Assembly (NCBI GenBank): GCA_024220505.1
Contig: JAKZZE010000005.1
Location: forward strand, 1,014,501-1,078,500
Length of the DNA stretch: 64,000 bases
From: Rhizopus arrhizus
Lineage: Eukaryota > Mucoromycota > Mucoromycetes > Mucorales > Rhizopodaceae
Direction of reading: 5' to 3'
Shown here: positions 6,578 through 36,300 of the stretch, in pieces
Layout of the letters: each line of letters starts with the position of its first letter
How positions within the stretch are numbered: the first letter of the stretch is position 1
Made by a program: the position numbers and the translations under genes
Notes under the pieces: generated by a model
What the model saw: the letters and a program-made list of their open reading frames with translations, nothing else
Told to the model about the DNA's origin: nothing
The model's database searches: none

Positions 6578-7874
6578 TCATGCTCAGGCTGTTATTGAAT
6601 TTGACTAAGGCGTGCCAATAATCATACTTCAGTGTTAGCCTACGCTTAGTATATAATATACGTTTCATTGAGCAGCAACTTAAATAAACATAATTTCTTT
6701 TTATTTGTTTACTCTCAAAATAAACAAAAAGAAGCTCTAAAAAAAAGCTTTGTATCGTTTTTTAACAAAAGCAAGCACCTTTTCTTTGTGAAAGCAAGTA
6801 GAAAATAGGCAATGGAATGTATTTATAAAAAAAAGTAGGTATTTCTTTAATGCACCATTTCCCTTTTTTTATAGCTTTTAATCGTGAAAATGGCTTCTTT
6901 ATATGTTAGTCAAAAGGCTTTGCTATATTTGAAATCAGTATTACAGACCTATAATTGATGCAATCCGCCCCAAATCACAATTTGAAATCATTTAATTTTA
7001 TTTCCTGCTTAGTCCACTGAAAAAAAAAGCACCTTCCATGTTTAATCTCAAATCGTTACTCCATACAAAGATGGAATTTGAAATCTAAATGATAGAAGCC
7101 GTGCTTTTAGTAGACCAAACCATGGTTTTCTCTAAGGTAATACGACGTACCAATTATTAAAAAAAATCAAAACCCTTCAAAAAATGCGTACTGATAGTGC
7201 TTATATATTTGGCAATCATTGATATTCCTTGATGATAGTTAATTTGTTCATTTTAACATTATGAATCAAAATTCCTTGAAAGATGACTAGCGTGGTTTTA
7301 TTCATTTGGATATGAGTAGTTTTTTGAAAATTAGACTTTCAAGCTTTTCTATTAGACTTTTCGGTCAACCCCTGAAGAAATTTGTCCATTAAGTTGATGA
7401 AAGATGCTTTTACGGTGGTTATCTCATGTTAAAGCAAAACTCTTTTTTCTTCGCTTCCTTGAATGAGCATTCATTAATTTTCGAGCATGTGGAACGGCTT
7501 GCTTACGATATACGCCTATATCTATCCTCACTTTCTACCTGTAGTTTAAATCTTTAATCTTTTTTTTTTTTTTTGCTACTCACTTTATTATTAGACATCC
7601 TCACATAAAAATGGAAACATATATTGCGATTTTTTTTTTAAAAAAAAAGAAAGCGATAAAGAACAGACTTCTATTTTCCTTACTGATACAAAAGTATTCT
7701 AAAAAGATGTGCATTTTTGAAGATAATAGAAGTTTGGTACTATAATTGCAACATGCTATTGCGAAATGGAATACTATCAACCTGTAAGCGAAGCATAAGC
7801 AAACAACCAAAAAAAGTAAATGGATTTGGGAAAACGAGCTATAGATTGTTAAATGTCCGAACATTTTACAGTTA
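6578..7874. other. intergenic DNA left of the Fanzor transposon
   Basis: About 1.3 kb of AT-rich sequence with no spliceable reading frame. It carries the SLS1 3' flank and ends at the left terminal repeat of the transposon. Confidence 0.6.
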
Positions 7875-7943
7875 AAGAAACTAGGTTGGGCCAATGAAAA
7901 AAAAAAATTTGGTCAATTTAAAATTGAATTGGGACACGGTTGC

Positions 7944-7944
<1 letters not shown>
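7875..7944 (+). repeat. left terminal inverted repeat
   Basis: Begins AAGAAACTAGGTTGGGCCAA and ends GGGACACGGTTGCC. Its reverse complement recurs at 11335-11403 with one substitution and a shorter A run. It is followed directly by a 36-nt A run. Confidence 0.92.

Positions 7945-7980
<36 letters not shown>
7945..7980 (+). repeat. 36-nt poly-A run inside the left end of the transposon
   Basis: A continuous A run lies between the left terminal repeat and the Fanzor 3' flank. On the Fanzor strand it reads as a T run, which would end RNA polymerase III transcription. It may also be an assembly-sensitive homopolymer. Confidence 0.85.
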
Positions 7981-7982
<2 letters not shown>

Positions 7983-8055
7983 TGTCCAACTTACACTGTA
8001 CAGAAGTATGAGAGAGTCATATCAATCACACGGAAAGCTGGCCACTGGGATCTAA
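7945..8055 (-). ncRNA. candidate omega-RNA region at the Fanzor 3' flank
   Basis: Position only. In studied Fanzor and TnpB loci the guide RNA scaffold overlaps or follows the 3' end of the nuclease gene and runs to the element boundary, and the flanking DNA supplies the guide. Here 111 bases lie between the stop codon (8056) and the left terminal repeat. They include a short non-repetitive part (7981-8055) with small self-complementary segments such as CTGTACAG, then the poly-A (T on this strand) run. No fold was computed, and transcription is not shown. Confidence 0.3.
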
Positions 8056-10816
8056 CTAACGCACAAAGGCATCAAGACGCTGATTTTTGTTTTTTGCAGC
8101 AAATAAAAATATATCCAGTATGTTATGAGCAGCCATGATATCACGATTCCATATGATATTGCAATTGTTTTGCTTACACTGCAATACCGTATGTACTCTT
8201 CGTTTTGATTTGGCGGTTACAACATTGTCTACATTTCTAGTCTTGCATTTGTTGCAGATTTGGCTTGTTAAGTATTCATCCACCATGCAAATATCAAGCT
8301 GCTTTCCACAATATTTTTTCAACGCCTTCTTAATCATCCGCACAGGAGCAGATTTATTTCCACGGAGGCTGGAACCAAACATACCATCACCAAAAGCAAT
8401 GATGGTTTTCTTGGATCTTTTTTCGTGATCAATGGGAGCAGAAGGATAGTATCTATTCTCTTTCTTGGTAGATGTTCTTACGCCTGTAGTTGCTTTTTCA
8501 TCGTATTTGGCACTACCGTAAATGAAGCGCTTACAGATGTCATGAACACCTTTTTGTTTTCTAATATAGCATTTGAACTTCAGCTTTGACGACCTACACA
8601 GATTTTTGCATGTTGCTCAAGTAAACAAGTAAAAAAAATCATGTTTTATTTACCAAGATTTTTCATTGTAGTAACTTGTATTATCGTCATATAAGCTTAG
8701 TCTTTCTTTGCAAGCTTTTAAAAATTCTGCCATATTGGATGTCTTTAACGAGCTTAAGTTAGAAATTTTCAAAAACTGAGCCTTGTGTTGTTCTTGATGC
8801 TTTTTTCGTATAGAATTCGCATCATTATAGCCACACAGATGATAGTACTCGTACAAGCGTGTAGTCCTTTGTCTTCCGGATGTATCGACGGCAGTTACAA
8901 GTGTGGCAACACCAGGATCTACTCCCCAAATTTCACAGCCGTTTTCAATATCTTCGAGGAAGTCCTCAGGCTGTTTTCCCAGTAGAGTATCTATTTGTTT
9001 TTTCTTCCTCACTCTAGAAAAAAGGAAAGAAATCGAATACCCATCGGTATATATAACGTTTCTATGTATAACTTGATTAAATTAAGGCTCTTATTTTTCA
9101 ATTCAACTAAGCTAACTTACTGGAACTGTTTTTTCCCCTCTGAAAGGCTTTTTCGAGTTCGAAATCCCATTTTGGAAAAGTTAAAAAGCCTATAGTAGAA
9201 GTCCGAGAGAGCCGATTTATCTTTAACACCTTTTGGGATATTTTCAACACCAGATTGCTTCAACAGTCGCCAGAAAGCTTGGGCATCTATTTGTATTGAC
9301 TTCATCGCAAATGAGTATACAGGTAAGATGGAAAAAAAGCGATAGCCTCGCCGATCCGTGTATTTAGCAGGCGTGAATGTTCCGTCTTCAATTCTAGACT
9401 GGATACTTGTAATAAATTTCAAAAGAGCAGGTAAATGGGGCTCAAGCTTCTCTAATTTTTTCCCAAGCACTAGTGGTATTTTTGAATTAATGCTTTGCAG
9501 TACTTGTTCCTGTAAAGACTTGAAGCTTCGTCTATTGAGTATTGAAGTAAACGTGAGTTCTTTTAACTTCCTATAAATGTAGGACTTGGAGGCAAAGGTG
9601 GCTGGTTTTTCTTCCATAATATACACCTTCTCATTTATCTTTTGCTGAAGATAGAAAAACCATTTGAAGAATTCATGAGGTTTAGAGTACAGGTCTTCCG
9701 CATCGCAGTTCATTGTCTGATATCGACTCCATAATGCATTCATCTTCTCTATGGTTTCTTCTAAACATTTATTTCTTTCTAAAGATGAGGGCCATATTGA
9801 TTGCTGTTTCTGCTTTAATGTATAAACATAGTGAGAGAGTGCTTTTCTTTGGGCAACTGATAATCCTTTGCAATAGAAGGGAGAAGACATATCTGAAAAA
9901 GCTTCCAGAAAAAAGCGGGTTGTTCTCCTTTCATGGTTTTCACATACATGGTTGCGTATGAGTACATCGTATTGTTTACACATAATAGACAGAACAGACG
10001 AATATCCAATACTCTTGAGGGATTGCAGTATTGTTTCATTGACTTGGCATTCGTTGCAAAATTCAGCAAAGTAATCTTGACAGTATTTAGGGACTTTTTT
10101 GCCATTGCCAGTTACAACAGTGAAAATAGAATAGACAAGGGTATGATCAATAATTGGCACTTGTTCCCCCTTGTTTAAAAGCTTCAAAAAAATATAGTTC
10201 ATGAATAGTGAGCCTACGTGGATCGCTTTGGTTATGTAGGCCACTACTGAAGCAATCTTTTCAGAAACCCTTGTGTCCGTACATATATTTTTTAAAGAGG
10301 ATTTGATTGCAAAAGTTTCCTTTTTCTCATCAGGATTGTGAGATGGCTCCTTTTGCTTCTTTTTTGGGCAAAGGTTGGATGATGATCTTGAGTGAGTATT
10401 TAACCCGCAAGAAGGACATGTCTTTTCTGTATTGCTTTTTGTTTTCATTCTAAAGTCCTGCAAAGCAAGTTGTTTATCTATTTTCTTCTGTATCTTTTTG
10501 GAGGTAGGAGGAAGAGCACTAGGGGCCTGTGAAGTAGAAGCCTGTGAAGTAGAAGCATGTGAAGTAGAAGCTTGTGAAGTAGAGGCTTGTGAAGTAGAAG
10601 CTTGTGAAGTAGAAGCTTGTGAAGTAGAAGCTTGTGAATCAGAAGCAACTGAAGTGGTCAGAGCAGATGTAACTGATATATTATCAGAATTGACTCCTTG
10701 AAAAAAAAAGTAAAGAACATGATACCTCGCAATGTGTTATTTTGGTACTTACTCTTTAAAATCTTTCTTTTTGTTGACGAGCTCTTCGCGGGATCATTTT
10801 TATATCTTCGCTTCAT
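8056..10816 (-). CDS. Fanzor: eukaryotic TnpB-family RNA-guided DNA endonuclease
   Basis: Four exons (10816-10753, 10696-9121, 9013-8654, 8593-8056) give an uninterrupted 845-residue protein with consistent phases. The N-terminus holds a Ser/Thr/Gln/Ala repeat (residues ~42-77) and a zinc-knuckle-like motif C115-x2-C118-x4-H123-x7-C131. A long helical region (~150-540) follows. The C-terminal RuvC fold shows Asp579 in IWGVDPGVATL, Glu773 in VDEYLTSQIC, and Asp818 in IIWNRDIMAAHNI. A zinc ribbon, C780-x2-C783 and C806-x4-C811, sits between the last two. The glutamate beside the zinc ribbon matches the shifted catalytic Glu known from Fanzors, where the classical RuvC-II position (here IIAFGDGMFG) lacks it. 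Family members are RNA-guided DNA nucleases borne on transposons. All catalytic residues and the frame are intact, so activity is plausible but unproven. Confidence 0.92.
10531..10635 (-). repeat. 15-bp minisatellite in the Fanzor N-terminus
   Basis: Seven tandem copies of a 15-bp unit (consensus GAAGTAGAAGCTTGT on the plus strand), most identical or one base apart, with degenerate copies on both sides. It stays in frame and codes a five-residue Ser/Thr/Gln/Ala repeat, probably a flexible linker whose length may vary between strains. Confidence 0.9.
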
Positions 10817-11334
10817 TATCTATTATAAGCTTCAGAAAGAAAATAAATGTTTATAGATTTGTTCAAGTTCTGTTACTTTCTATTGAAATCCTTAATGACC
10901 AATGAAATTTCTTTGATATATAACAGTAGCAAAACTGATTAATTGCTTTGGAGCATCTCAAAACTATAGCTTGTGGCGATCCAGCGTAATTACTAGTCAT
11001 ATGCTTTTCTTGACTATTTAATTAATAGACTGGCAGGTAATGTAATTGGCTATACGGCTTATGTAATGTTATAAGATAATAAGCATTTTGCATAAAATTT
11101 ATTCTACCTCATATTTTGTAATATACACAGTGGGGCTAAGTAATCTGTCCATTTTGAAGATGAATATTCGTAACTTAAGCAATGGTTTCAGAAATTACTG
11201 CTTTGTCCGATTTCCATTTTCGCTTTTTCCAAAAAAAGGTGAGTTAAACATTTTAAAATCAATTGTTATTCGTCCAAAAAAAAACTAACATTCTGTCTCT
11301 CCTTTGTCCCATTTTCCTATCTGTGTCCCATTTT
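10817..11334. other. Fanzor 5' region inside the transposon
   Basis: About 0.5 kb between the Fanzor start and the right terminal repeat, presumably its promoter. Toward the repeat there are direct repeats of TGTCCCATTTT (11305 and 11324), and a third partial copy (TGTCCCA) lies inside the repeat. No reliable gene is present. Confidence 0.55.
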
Positions 11335-11403
11335 GGCAACCGTGTCCCAATTCAATTTTAAATTGACCAGAATTTTTTTTTCATTGGCCCAACCTAGTTT
11401 CTT
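11335..11403 (-). repeat. right terminal inverted repeat
   Basis: Reverse complement of the left repeat at 7875-7944, ending CCTAGTTTCTT. It is also bordered by an inner T run, the counterpart of the A's beside the left repeat. Confidence 0.92.
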
Positions 11404-12795
11404 GCAATGTTAATTTTGGGATTACTGTAAAGATTGAAATAGAATGATAATCATCACAGCTTTATATACTGGATTGGAAGGATTATTGTATGATGTGAAG
11501 TATTAAATTGCGCACTTTGTTCATCTTGTTGCCAATTCTTGAAAACTAAGCGTGATGCAGAAGAGGAAAAAAGCTGGATTACACCTTAATTTTTTTTACT
11601 CCTCTCTCTTGTTCGTCCTTCTTTAATGTGGTTATTTAAGGAATAACTAATTGCCTCATCACTATTTTGTTCCTATCCAATTAAAAACCATTTAAACATA
11701 CTATTTTTTCAATCGCCGTTAAATAAGCAAAAAAAAAGTACAAAAAGATCATCAAAGAAGGGGGCCTTATCATTTTTCTTCTTTTTTTACTTTACTTCTT
11801 TTTATTCATTTATAATAGAAAACAATAATAAGAGTCAAGTGGCATGCCCTAATGGGATGGAATCCTTGTCGGCCTACACTTATTGTCTCTGCGGTGTTGG
11901 TTTAACATCATGCAAGGTCGGGCCAGTAGTAATATAGTTCAAAAAAATCATTCGAATCTCTGCTGGTCTGTTCTTCAGTATATGCTCCTAGATCTTGGTG
12001 TCTTTTTGCTCCTCCTTTTCTAAACGCGTTTTCTCTGCAGCTTTATGAATTAAACACAACAAAATCCTCGCTAGTGATAATTCCTTCCGCTCGTTTAATG
12101 GACAGCACAAAAGACTCTCTCCTACTCTTCTCTTGGGTAAATCGGAATAGCACAAAAAGAGTGAGAAGCCTTGATCCAGTATAGTCACCCTCTTTTAATA
12201 TAATAAAAGTAAATTATTGCTCTTGCAGCAAACCAAAAAAAGAAAAAAGGAAAAAAAAATTTTTTTTCTATTATAGACCACAAGCAATTTAAAATGAAAT
12301 AAAAAAGTTTAAAATTTCGATCACATACATAGACTTATATTCCAAAGCCACAAACAAAATAGTGTTTTATATAAAAGTCTTTGGTCATATATCACTCGCA
12401 AATTAGCGCTTAATAATAAAGTAATAAAAAAGGACAATAGGAATGAAACAGGTGAAATTACTACATTTTAAAGACGATACAATCTGTCTACAACTATCTA
12501 GGGATATCTGGAAAGTTCGACCGGTTGTACAAATGCCACGTTTTACATATAATAAAATATAAGAGTATAATAATAGGACTATGACTGAAAAACAATAAAT
12601 AAAATATAAGTGAGTCATACTAAATTAAAGCATCTATAAACCACTATGTATTAAATTACAAAGCGCAAAAATACATATGAACAGATATTAAGGTCAAGTC
12701 TTTTGCAGCATTCCTAGAGTTCATTGGCTCTGATGCCGAAAAAAAAACGGTTGCAGCCACCGTCCTTTCTAAATAAGAATGATAATAATAAAAAA
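11404..12795. other. intergenic DNA right of the transposon
   Basis: AT-rich, with a GC-richer patch near 11840-11940. A minus-strand open stretch (11988-12188) was seen but matches nothing I recognise and has no gene context. No spliceable gene was found. Confidence 0.5.
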
Positions 12796-33308: not shown

Positions 33309-36300
33309 TTAACTAGATACAAAGCTGAAATACTGTCTTAAAGCATCAGAGAGTGCTTCCGGTAATGAGCTTACATCACGTACAATCATAAAGTACTGGA
33401 ATGGGAAGGTTTCAAGATAGGGCTTCATCTGGATTCCGTATTTGCCATCATTAATGGTATATGTGATATTTGTCATATTCAAAATAGAATCTTTCTCAGG
33501 CTTGTTGTCCACGACAATGAATATGATCATGATACGCTGTTCAAGTGCGCTTCGAACTAGCGCTTTTAACATGTCGTGATCTTCACAAATACCATCAGAA
33601 ATAATCAATTGAAGTTGCCAAAGGTCATCTTTGCCAGGACCTGAAGAATGCTTTGCATTTTCAAACAATCCAAGAGAAGTTTCAATCAAGTTTTTAACGT
33701 AAGTCTTTTGTTGACCAAATGTGAATTGTTGAATGACATTGGCACCAGATTCTGCTGTAAAAGGTTGGCCAAATGGATGCAATAGTCGTACACGTTCGCC
33801 AAAAGAAGAGATAGAAATATCACCTACCTCTAACTGTGACAAGGCTTTAGATATCAATGCTAATGTTTCATAAGCTAATTGTACGGAGCGAGATTCAGAC
33901 ATTGACTTGGAATCATCAACAGAGATCATAACTTGGTATTGTCGTTTGCTTAATTTTGTGCGGCGTAACCAAATTTTATCCTTCTTGAATTGACTTGCAA
34001 TGTAAGGAATAATCTTCTTCATATTAAGTCGTTTACCAGTGCGGTAATCACCCTTAAGTTTTGTAGCCAAAGTGGGTTCAAGAATCAAACGAAGCTGCTC
34101 ACAAAGACCCATTGCAAGGTCATGCGTCAAATTTTCATATCCCTGCCAAAGCTCTCTTGCCTTGTTGATATCTCGTCCTTCTTCACGCCAATCAGAAACT
34201 CGAGTTTCAAGCTCTTGTCTCATAAGTTCAATATCTTGTTGTTCAAGAGGTTCTCGGGACACGACAGATTCATCTATTGTCAATATCTCAGTTTCATCGA
34301 CCATCTGGCTTTCAGGTAGTTTCTTGCTTAAAATAGCTCCTTGTCTATCAGTAGTACCAGACATATCCAAGGTATCACGTGGTAAAGGCATTGTATCAAT
34401 CGATTCTTCAGGTTGGTCAATGTCCATTTCACCGGAAACTTCTTTTCCATCTTCTTGTTGCTCATCCATTGCTGCCGTCTTCAAATCTTGTACTTGATCA
34501 GGTTGTGCATTGCCCATTGCTTGCATATCATGAGCCTCATCATCATTTTTAACATACTCAAATGAATCATTTTCATTCACTTCAGCATTTTCTGTATTTT
34601 CATCTTCAGTCTTCTTAACTTCATCAGATTCTTCCTCTTCTTCGTCATTAAGTTCATCATCAAGGTTTGCTAATCTTCTTCTCCACTTCTCTAAAGCATC
34701 ACCTAGACTTCTTTGAGGGTTGGATTGTTCTTGATTTGTTTCTTTGTCTTCAGCTTGATCAATGTTTTCCTCATTCTCAGCATCATCTTCATTGTTAGCC
34801 TCATTAGAACCGTTTTGAGATTTGCCCTTCTTTTCTTTCTTTTCGGCAGTATCGTCTTCATCTTCGGCAATATCAGCCATATCATCTTCGCCTTCTTTCT
34901 TACCAGCAGAACTCTTGCTTTGTTTACCAGATTGACCTTGAACACCGAATTGATTATCAGCAGCAGCATCGCTATTGGGCTGTTCACGATTTTGAGCTGT
35001 ATTCTCAAGTTGCTCCTCTTCATCTTCTTGTTCTATCTGAGCACCATTCTTCGAGTCTTCTTGATCTCCTGTAGCATCAGGCACCTCTTCGCTCTTTTCT
35101 TTATCTTCTTCGATGCCTTCTTCAGTTTGCTCTGTATCCAATTCAGCGGAAGCATCAGCCATTTCATCATCCTCTTCCTTTCCATCCGCCAGTTCATTGT
35201 CAATGTCATCTAAAGCATCATGGAAGGCTTCTCCTTCTTCATCTTCTTCAGGGAGCTGCTCTTCATTAGGTTTTTCGTCGAGATCCATTGGGTCATCCAT
35301 ACCCATCTCTTCATTCTCGCCTCCTTCTTGGTCTTCATCATCACCTTCCATGTTCATATCTTCTGGAAGATCAAGTGTTTCGGCTTCAGGGATTTCAGCA
35401 TTAAGTTGCTCTCCAGGCCTGTTCTCAACATCATCCTCATCCTCACCTTCACCTTCACCTTCTTTTTCTTCATCGCCTTCACCATTTTCATCTTGTTCAT
35501 CAATCTCTTCTTCGCCCTCAAGATCTTGCTGTTGATCATCCTTATTTTCAGCCTTATCTGACTTACCATCTGTCTTTTCAGGTTCTTGTTCACCTTCTTC
35601 CTTGGCAACAATATCAGAGTTTTCTTGCTTGTCTTGTTTTCCTTGGTCGTCCACAGTTTTATCGCTTTCGTTCAAGTTATCTTCACCTTCATCACCCCAC
35701 ATCTTATCATCTACAGCATCGGGATCCATATCGTCAACATCGCCAATTTGTTCATCAGGCTCGTCCTCTTCATCTTCTGAACTTTCAGATTCATCATTTT
35801 CATCCTCATCTTGTTCCATATCTTCAAGGTTGCCGTCAAAATCGTTCTCCATATCCATACCGTTCTTCTCTTCTTTAGTATCCTGCTTGTCATCATTAGA
35901 ACGCTCTTCATTCTGAGTTCCAAGCACTTGCTCTTCATCTTCAATTTCATGGCTGACATCCTTAGTACCTTCACCTTCACCAACACCAGTTCCAGCTTGA
36001 GTACCATCAGCTTCACCTTCTTCAGCATCTTCTGCACCAGCAGGCATACAAAATCCTTTGGTGATAATGATGCTAAAGGAATTAACGAGACAGTAAGTGA
36101 ATTTGGCCATAGACTTGTGGTGGATAATCATACGGGCTAATGTATGTTGAACAATAAGCATATATTGTTGAAGGAAAGGATAGGCTTCTTGCAATAACCG
36201 GGAGATCTCCTTTACTACTGAGCTATCTTGTTGGCGGCCAAGTAAAGCATGGGTAATCATCAATAGTTCACTACTGCGTTTGGCAGCAGATTCCATATGG

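Follow-up and report, generated by a model that had tools for sequence, protein, structure and literature searches.

Transposons with mariner-type ends and a Fanzor as their only gene have already been published, and the element analysed here adds one member to them. SPu-1/SpuFz1 of Spizellomyces punctatus is described as having a sole Fanzor1 open reading frame (ORF), terminal inverted repeats (TIRs), a TA target duplication, many copies of which part are intact, and conserved bases ending in TA (CATA) at the 5′ side only (PMC3627910, PMC10432273). PUl-4-type elements are likewise described with Fanzor1 only, mariner TIRs and a TA duplication, without a transposase gene (PMC3627910). The same features were found in an element at positions 7869-11410 (minus strand) of a 64,000-nucleotide stretch of the Rhizopus arrhizus genome (assembly GCA_024220505.1, contig JAKZZE010000005.1, positions 1,014,501 to 1,078,500), hereafter the window, with AATTA in the place of CATA. 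Compared to SPu-1, the Rhizopus element has an intron-containing, longer protein, longer TIRs and another predicted target-adjacent motif (TAM). Most copies of this family have AATTA at their 5′ side only, and in some of them the first bases of the 5′ end match the copy's own 3′ flank (scars). On balance, these comparisons tip slightly towards a non-autonomous Tc1/mariner-type transposon carrying only Fanzor1, with a guide that would derive from the flank, a nuclease that would cut empty sites and a repair that would leave the scars. The scars were seen in the Rhizopus element, the copies of SPu-1 lying outside the comparison.

The first-pass annotation of the window had enclosed the gene in inverted repeats at 7875-11403. 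The inverted repeats are present, but these limits were too short: no target duplications exist there, and comparison of copies put the true ends further out, at 11410 (5′ end) and 7869 (3′ end), with TA on both sides. Two pairs of inverted arms were found (7898-7948/11331-11381, 96%; 7865-7905/11373-11413, 90%), and the arm search together with the copy comparison delimited a 5′ TIR at 11331-11410 and a 3′ TIR at 7869-7948, both read on the minus strand. The 5′ TIR starts with ACATTGC rather than the usual CAGTGC, while the 3′ TIR terminates in ...CTTTAACTG ahead of the TA duplication (7867-7868, minus strand), which was located by sequence and copy comparison. The copies have TA|CAGT... ends, usually CAGTGC at the 5′ side of the gene and CAGTTA at the 3′ side, and TG replaces TA at two 5′ ends (L016 and L035). 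A longer right-hand TIR was wholly or partly kept in 13 of 21 copies and absent in 8 (by eye); the window copy belongs to these 8 and has a T-run there (an A-run on the plus strand).

The genome searched (50.3 Mb, 41 contigs, labelled G000) gave at least 50 matches to the TIR (40 of 51 candidates scored), and a search for the terminal pattern gave 57 matches, compared to 1 with a reversed-pattern control, so the recurrence of the TIR is not due to chance. The same pair of repeats was found again in other copies, and thus comes from one element and not from two unrelated insertions. The search for other copies that had been proposed in the annotation retrieved 28 loci with a last-exon identity of at least 92% (counted over 70 listed rows). 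Alignment was made for 25 of them (24 plus the window copy), and L005, L050 and L051 were used in the end and junction counts only. Two mini-elements made from the ends of the family were also observed, one of 73 bp with AATTG at its 5′-type side (L035, G000:C4:341452-341524) and one of 189 bp with AATTA (L036, G000:C1:2065767-2065955).

AAT was present ahead of the TA (TG in L016 and L035) at 18 of 20 5′ ends and at none of 33 3′ ends (Fisher test, 3e-12), against a background of 273 of the 9452 TA sites of the window. The 5′ reads of L011, L017 and L027 were taken to the left of an intervening piece of a long interspersed nuclear element (LINE); reading these three at the element itself lowers the count to 16 of 20. 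L012 and L029, which are outside the 20 5′ ends, also have AAT. The motif tracks the direction of the gene even where both termini are of one type (3′-type in L013 and L024, 5′-type in L019). In SpuFz1, a CA conserved at the 5′ side only forms with the TA the experimentally found TAM, CATA (PMC10432273). Given the 5′-only motif, its dependence on gene direction and the parallel with SpuFz1, we predict 5′-AATTA as the TAM and each copy's own 3′ flank as the guide. In the window copy, end statistics place the predicted TAM at 11411-11415 (minus strand), whose TA (11411-11412) is the target duplication, and the SpuFz1 layout and the scars of other copies would place the guide/protospacer at 7847-7866 (minus strand, with an assumed length of 20). 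The 3′ untranslated region (UTR) plus the right TIR (7867-8055, minus strand) is a candidate omega-RNA scaffold. Its first part is little variable: diversity at 8052-7981 (72 nt) was 0.0126 in 22 copies, lower than in all 443 windows of the 5′ UTR, and among the 3131 windows along the whole element, 264 had values equally low. Covariation was detected in 0 of 36 pairs of the candidate scaffold (7 sequences).

The scars were analysed by comparing the bases past the 5′ TA with the 3′ flank of the same copy past its TA, and by permutation. The comparison comprised 21 copies; L023 was omitted (with its canonical 5′ end, L052, it would contribute zero). The shared prefixes totalled 53 nt, compared to a permutation mean of 9.0, and none of 300000 permutations reached 53. 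At least 3 nt were shared in seven of the 21 copies (12 nt in L011, 10 in L029, 8 in L027, 6 in L026, 5 in L030, 4 in L015 and 3 in L009), a number of copies that was also reached by 0 of 300000 permutations; among 420 mismatched pairs, 9 reached 3 nt, two reached 5 and none reached 6. When L011 was read directly at the element, 11 nt were still shared. A stricter set, limited to the 16 copies free of LINEs and truncations, totalled 21 nt (reached by 56 of 300000 permutations), and an earlier test with 19 copies gave 1 in 200000, or 19 in 200000 without L011. By our reading, the replaced bases stay in register with the end of the element in four copies (L011, L015, L026 and L030) and, save for a 3-nt gap, in L029; L009 is one base longer. 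In the mirror comparison, made at the 3′ end, all 21 copies shared zero bases. By-eye counts gave deviant first four bases at 8 of 20 5′ ends and at 0 of 33 3′ ends, the solo 3′ ends, partly retrieved by terminal pattern, being biased to canonical termini. When the left 2.3 kb were searched for the TAM plus the copy's own protospacer, only L011 and L027 exceeded the 552 mismatched pairs. The cut of SpuFz1 in the non-target strand falls after bases 16 and 17 (PMC10432273); all scars (3-12 nt) are shorter than this distance, as is expected after trimming.

We infer that the scars stem from cuts in the protospacers of empty sites that were repaired from element-bearing DNA. The guide RNA would be transcribed from the 3′ UTR across the right TIR and onwards to the flank, and each copy's guide would thus be its own 3′ flank. 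The predicted complex would recognise AATTA joined to this flank, an arrangement existing only where the element is absent (on an empty allele, or on a sister after clean excision), and would cut within the flank. The right broken end, which is fully homologous, would copy the element from the element-bearing chromosome, and the left one, made up of AATTA followed by some bases of the protospacer, would rejoin, usually after trimming of its tail. A tail that is occasionally kept would overwrite the first bases of the 5′ end of the element, generating the scar. New insertions would be made by a Tc1/mariner transposase acting in trans, and the retention or homing of those adjoining a TAM would explain AATTA at the 5′ side of most copies. 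Neither a transposase break at the TA nor general conversion predicts scars at the 5′ end only.

Several observations weigh against this cut-and-repair scheme. Two 5′ ends lack the motif (CACTA in L015, GATTA in L052) and two read AATTG (L016 and L035). The deviant 5′ ends of the window copy (ACATTGC) and of L028 (CTGTGC) do not match their own flanks, and the CTGTGC shared by L015, L028 and L030 may have been inherited as a single variant. The 8-nt match of L027, left of the LINE, may be a LINE target duplication, and L011 has a LINE at the junction as well. Only 2 of 14 broken or missing 5′ ends fit TAM plus protospacer (L029 with 10 nt, L012 with 2 nt). A joined-flank search of the genome for empty paralogous sites found none among 40 scored places. 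The candidate scaffold did not fold more stably than shuffled sequences (z -0.42, 63 of 200 shuffles folding as well). Finally, ten inactivated copies had a ratio of non-synonymous to synonymous change (dN/dS) of 0.31-0.32, no different from that of intact copies (Fisher test, 0.41).

The remaining 12 of the 14 broken left ends, some of them with nested insertions or without a 3′ end, do not fit, and scars as a general rule at broken left ends were rejected. What the joined-flank search exposed instead were LINE junctions: pieces of LINEs are a few bases away at most from the end of the element at three 5′ junctions (L011, L017 and L027) and in the 3′ flank of L020. The LINE of L011, with its 14-bp duplication, looks ordinary. 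In L017, a 267-bp internal LINE piece sits between AATTA and ATTA. Entry at breaks, site preference and earlier presence were all considered as origins of these junctions.

Carried one step further, the cut-and-repair scheme would make the Fanzor a natural eukaryotic homing gene drive that cuts alleles with an empty AATTA plus own-3′-flank site, the scars roughly reporting the places of the cuts; we judge the chances of this to be even. Alternatively, cutting might serve retention in the same cell after excision and not homing into the empty alleles of a mate, a possibility that we consider unlikely. Vegetative Mucorales are haploid, which suits retention, but when Tc1/mariner elements excise, footprint bases usually stay behind between the TAs, and these would put bases other than AATTA beside the protospacer. 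The layout of TAM and guide is identical under homing and retention, and bacterial TnpB is described as acting both as retention and as drive (PMC11870625).

The drive that we propose resembles TnpB of IS200/IS605, for which a guide taken from the insertion flank, cutting of empty sites and spread of the element are described (PMC11870625) and which here would apply by inference; IS200/IS605 is a bacterial TnpA/TnpB element, while the present one is a eukaryotic TA-type cut-and-paste element. Cutting by Fanzor has been demonstrated experimentally for a few proteins, and its benefit to the transposon has been argued from bacterial TnpB. One-sided own-flank scars, if correctly interpreted, would count as genomic evidence that RNA-guided homing or retention occurs in a eukaryote, obtained from sequence alone, and would reveal a natural self-copying system. 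Scars and motif together predict the TAM and the guide of the enzyme ahead of experiment, and the own-flank test can be applied to any multi-copy Fanzor family. Among the papers listed by searches of the open literature for Fanzor and TnpB, none reported own-flank scars in its title or abstract opening.

It is as improbable as retention in the same cell, in our estimation, that the Fanzor is a mere passenger of a transposon whose transposase itself prefers an oriented AATTA, owing to the differing subterminal regions, the scars being chance matches, inherited variants or LINE duplications. The ends of the two sides do differ in sequence and length, a weak preference for T ahead of the TA exists at 3′ ends too (18 of 33), CTGTGC is common to three deviant 5′ ends, and two of the strongest matches (L011 and L027) touch LINE insertions. 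However, the motif remains at the 5′ side of the gene in the three copies with termini of one type, and AAT was present at 0 of 12 ends of Fanzor-less elements with related TIRs (by eye; the ends of L055 and L056 are pairwise alike, so that fewer are independent). Chance is also disfavoured by the permutations without LINE or truncated copies and without L011 given above. Lastly, that the scars are real marks of allelic or sister-chromatid repair of any nearby break, with no part for Fanzor cutting, is very unlikely, because such repair, from which in-register replacement would be expected (gene conversion with a mismatched tail), should mark both ends, and the deviant ends (a biased count) and the mirror comparison point to the 5′ end only.

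The proposed cutting enzyme is encoded by a four-exon, uninterrupted gene on the minus strand, as the first-pass annotation had it, with three GT..AG introns, an intact reading frame and a spliced product of 845 amino acids. Exon 1 (10753-10816) contains the start codon, exon 2 (9121-10696) a run of 15-bp repeats, exon 3 (8654-9013) the RuvC-I motif with D579-P-G, and exon 4 (8056-8593, stop included) E773, the zinc ribbon (C780/C783/C806/C811) and R817-D818. D579, E773 and D818 were thus found at the positions first noted for them, and the zinc ribbon was recognised in the last exon as PF07282 (TnpB; E 1.4e-7; 32 bits, cut-off 26.3). The published Fanzor pattern D-X(125,275)-[TS][TS]XX-C4 zinc finger-X(5,50)-RD (PMC3627910) is present as D579, T776-S777, C780/C783/C806/C811 and R817-D818. 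A second published fingerprint, DPG in RuvC-I and a relocated glutamate six residues ahead of the first CxxC (PMC10711439), is present as D579-P580-G581, with six residues separating E773 from C780; the second cysteine pair is CX4C here and CXXC in the search pattern of that paper. In an alignment of 17 proteins, E773 and the following LTSQ did not vary.

By these motifs, the product is a Fanzor1, in agreement with the earlier identification. A search of PDB sequences with the window protein gave no match up to E 1, and a further one gave a single match to a ribosomal protein (E 0.52). The structure model of a homologue (P0016, 19 sequences) had a mean predicted local distance difference test (pLDDT) score of 45.8, too poor to place the RuvC triad; consequently, both the RuvC placement and the Fanzor membership rest on sequence motifs. 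PpFz1 of Parasitella parasitica, like the window protein a Fanzor1 of Mucorales, is at most a distant relative, since no PDB sequence matched at E 1; its TAM is given as ATN, and Rhizopus relatives with its extra domain are mentioned (PMC11423790). The named proteins nearest to the last exon were from R. arrhizus (97% identity over 90%) and R. delemar (96% over 37%), while exon 2 matched proteins of Mucor, Cokeromyces and R. microsporus, as well as unnamed ones. The present family may be one of ROr-1 to ROr-4 of Rhizopus oryzae, elements of the same genus (PMC3627910), compared by description only; ROr-4 is described there as MuDR-like with 9-bp duplications. The 15-bp tandem repeat of exon 2 (10528-10646) encodes ASTSQ in the N-terminus, and its number varies among copies, accounting for most of the differences in protein length (cause judged by eye).

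The kinship with Tc1/mariner was apparent from the TA target duplication and the TACAGT-type inverted ends. The Fanzor gene is the sole gene between the TIRs, and no other long sense ORF, hence no transposase, is present inside, as annotated. Among the candidates scored, the search for a transposase with matching ends found a broken one and a relic, both with related TIRs. The broken one is in a related 1.6-kb element (L054, C23:1632562-1634153) with a 314-amino-acid transposase ORF that has stops in the DDE_3 match; its TIR is identical to that of the Fanzor element at 44 of 56 positions (score 30, shuffle maximum 9). This is the best match to the TIR of a transposase-bearing element, whereas TIRs of PUl-4-type elements are stated to be identical to those of confirmed mariners (PMC3627910). 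The TIR of the relic (C21:68605) is identical at 47 of 55 positions, and the intact transposases nearest to the relic were discarded as partners, their TIRs being different. An intact transposase flanked by the ~75-bp TIR was absent among the matches listed for the TIR, for the terminal pattern and for DDE_3 (150 of 1749 first-look candidates scored for DDE_3). The genome is very rich in DDE_3 transposases, with at least 199 matches in the DDE_3 search. A wider TIR superfamily was also observed, with TACAGYTGAAGAAAATAGGTTGG and TACAGTCGACGAAAAAAGGTTGG and GGGACA-like subterminal repeats, some as inverted pairs (G000:C7:270376, C8:881352, C34:1357359/1359856, C37:670977, C28:270451/274626 and C5:391812/396646).

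Twelve of the 25 aligned copies were fully intact (open frame and three GT..AG introns); L014 and L016 also have an open frame, with one odd splice site each in the alignment. The tree of 24 copies (L032 omitted) was star-like, with terminal branches of 0.8-2.8%. The window copy had been thought recently inserted, but its terminal branch (1.16%) is the ninth shortest of the 24 and it is not the youngest. Near-identity of the TIRs is a poor clock, because at least four copies (L009, L019, L020 and L027) carry an identical variant in both ends. Pooled dN/dS was 0.30 in 13 copies, and that of private changes was 0.35 (110 non-synonymous, 82 synonymous), or 0.39 in a second count, values that indicate purifying selection along the lineages. 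Selection on single inserted copies was dropped as a reading and is not claimed, since the private changes of dead and intact copies have similar dN/dS.

A second multi-copy Fanzor family was observed (L060-L066, at G000:C38:1261490, C38:1778900, C11:654370, C3:184911, C1:1563386, C15:443369 and C17:144372), with a last-exon identity of 28-33% to the window gene. Its copies are ~93-96% alike and the zinc-ribbon frame is open in 6 of 7. No TIRs were found within the 4.1-4.2 kb inspected per copy, save for an inverted stretch in L062; the ends of this family lie outside that range, and it was rejected as an independent test. Elsewhere in the window, positions 34001-36000 showed a strong strand skew (GC skew -0.31, AT skew -0.30) and resemble, by appearance, an acidic stretch of a long minus-strand protein.

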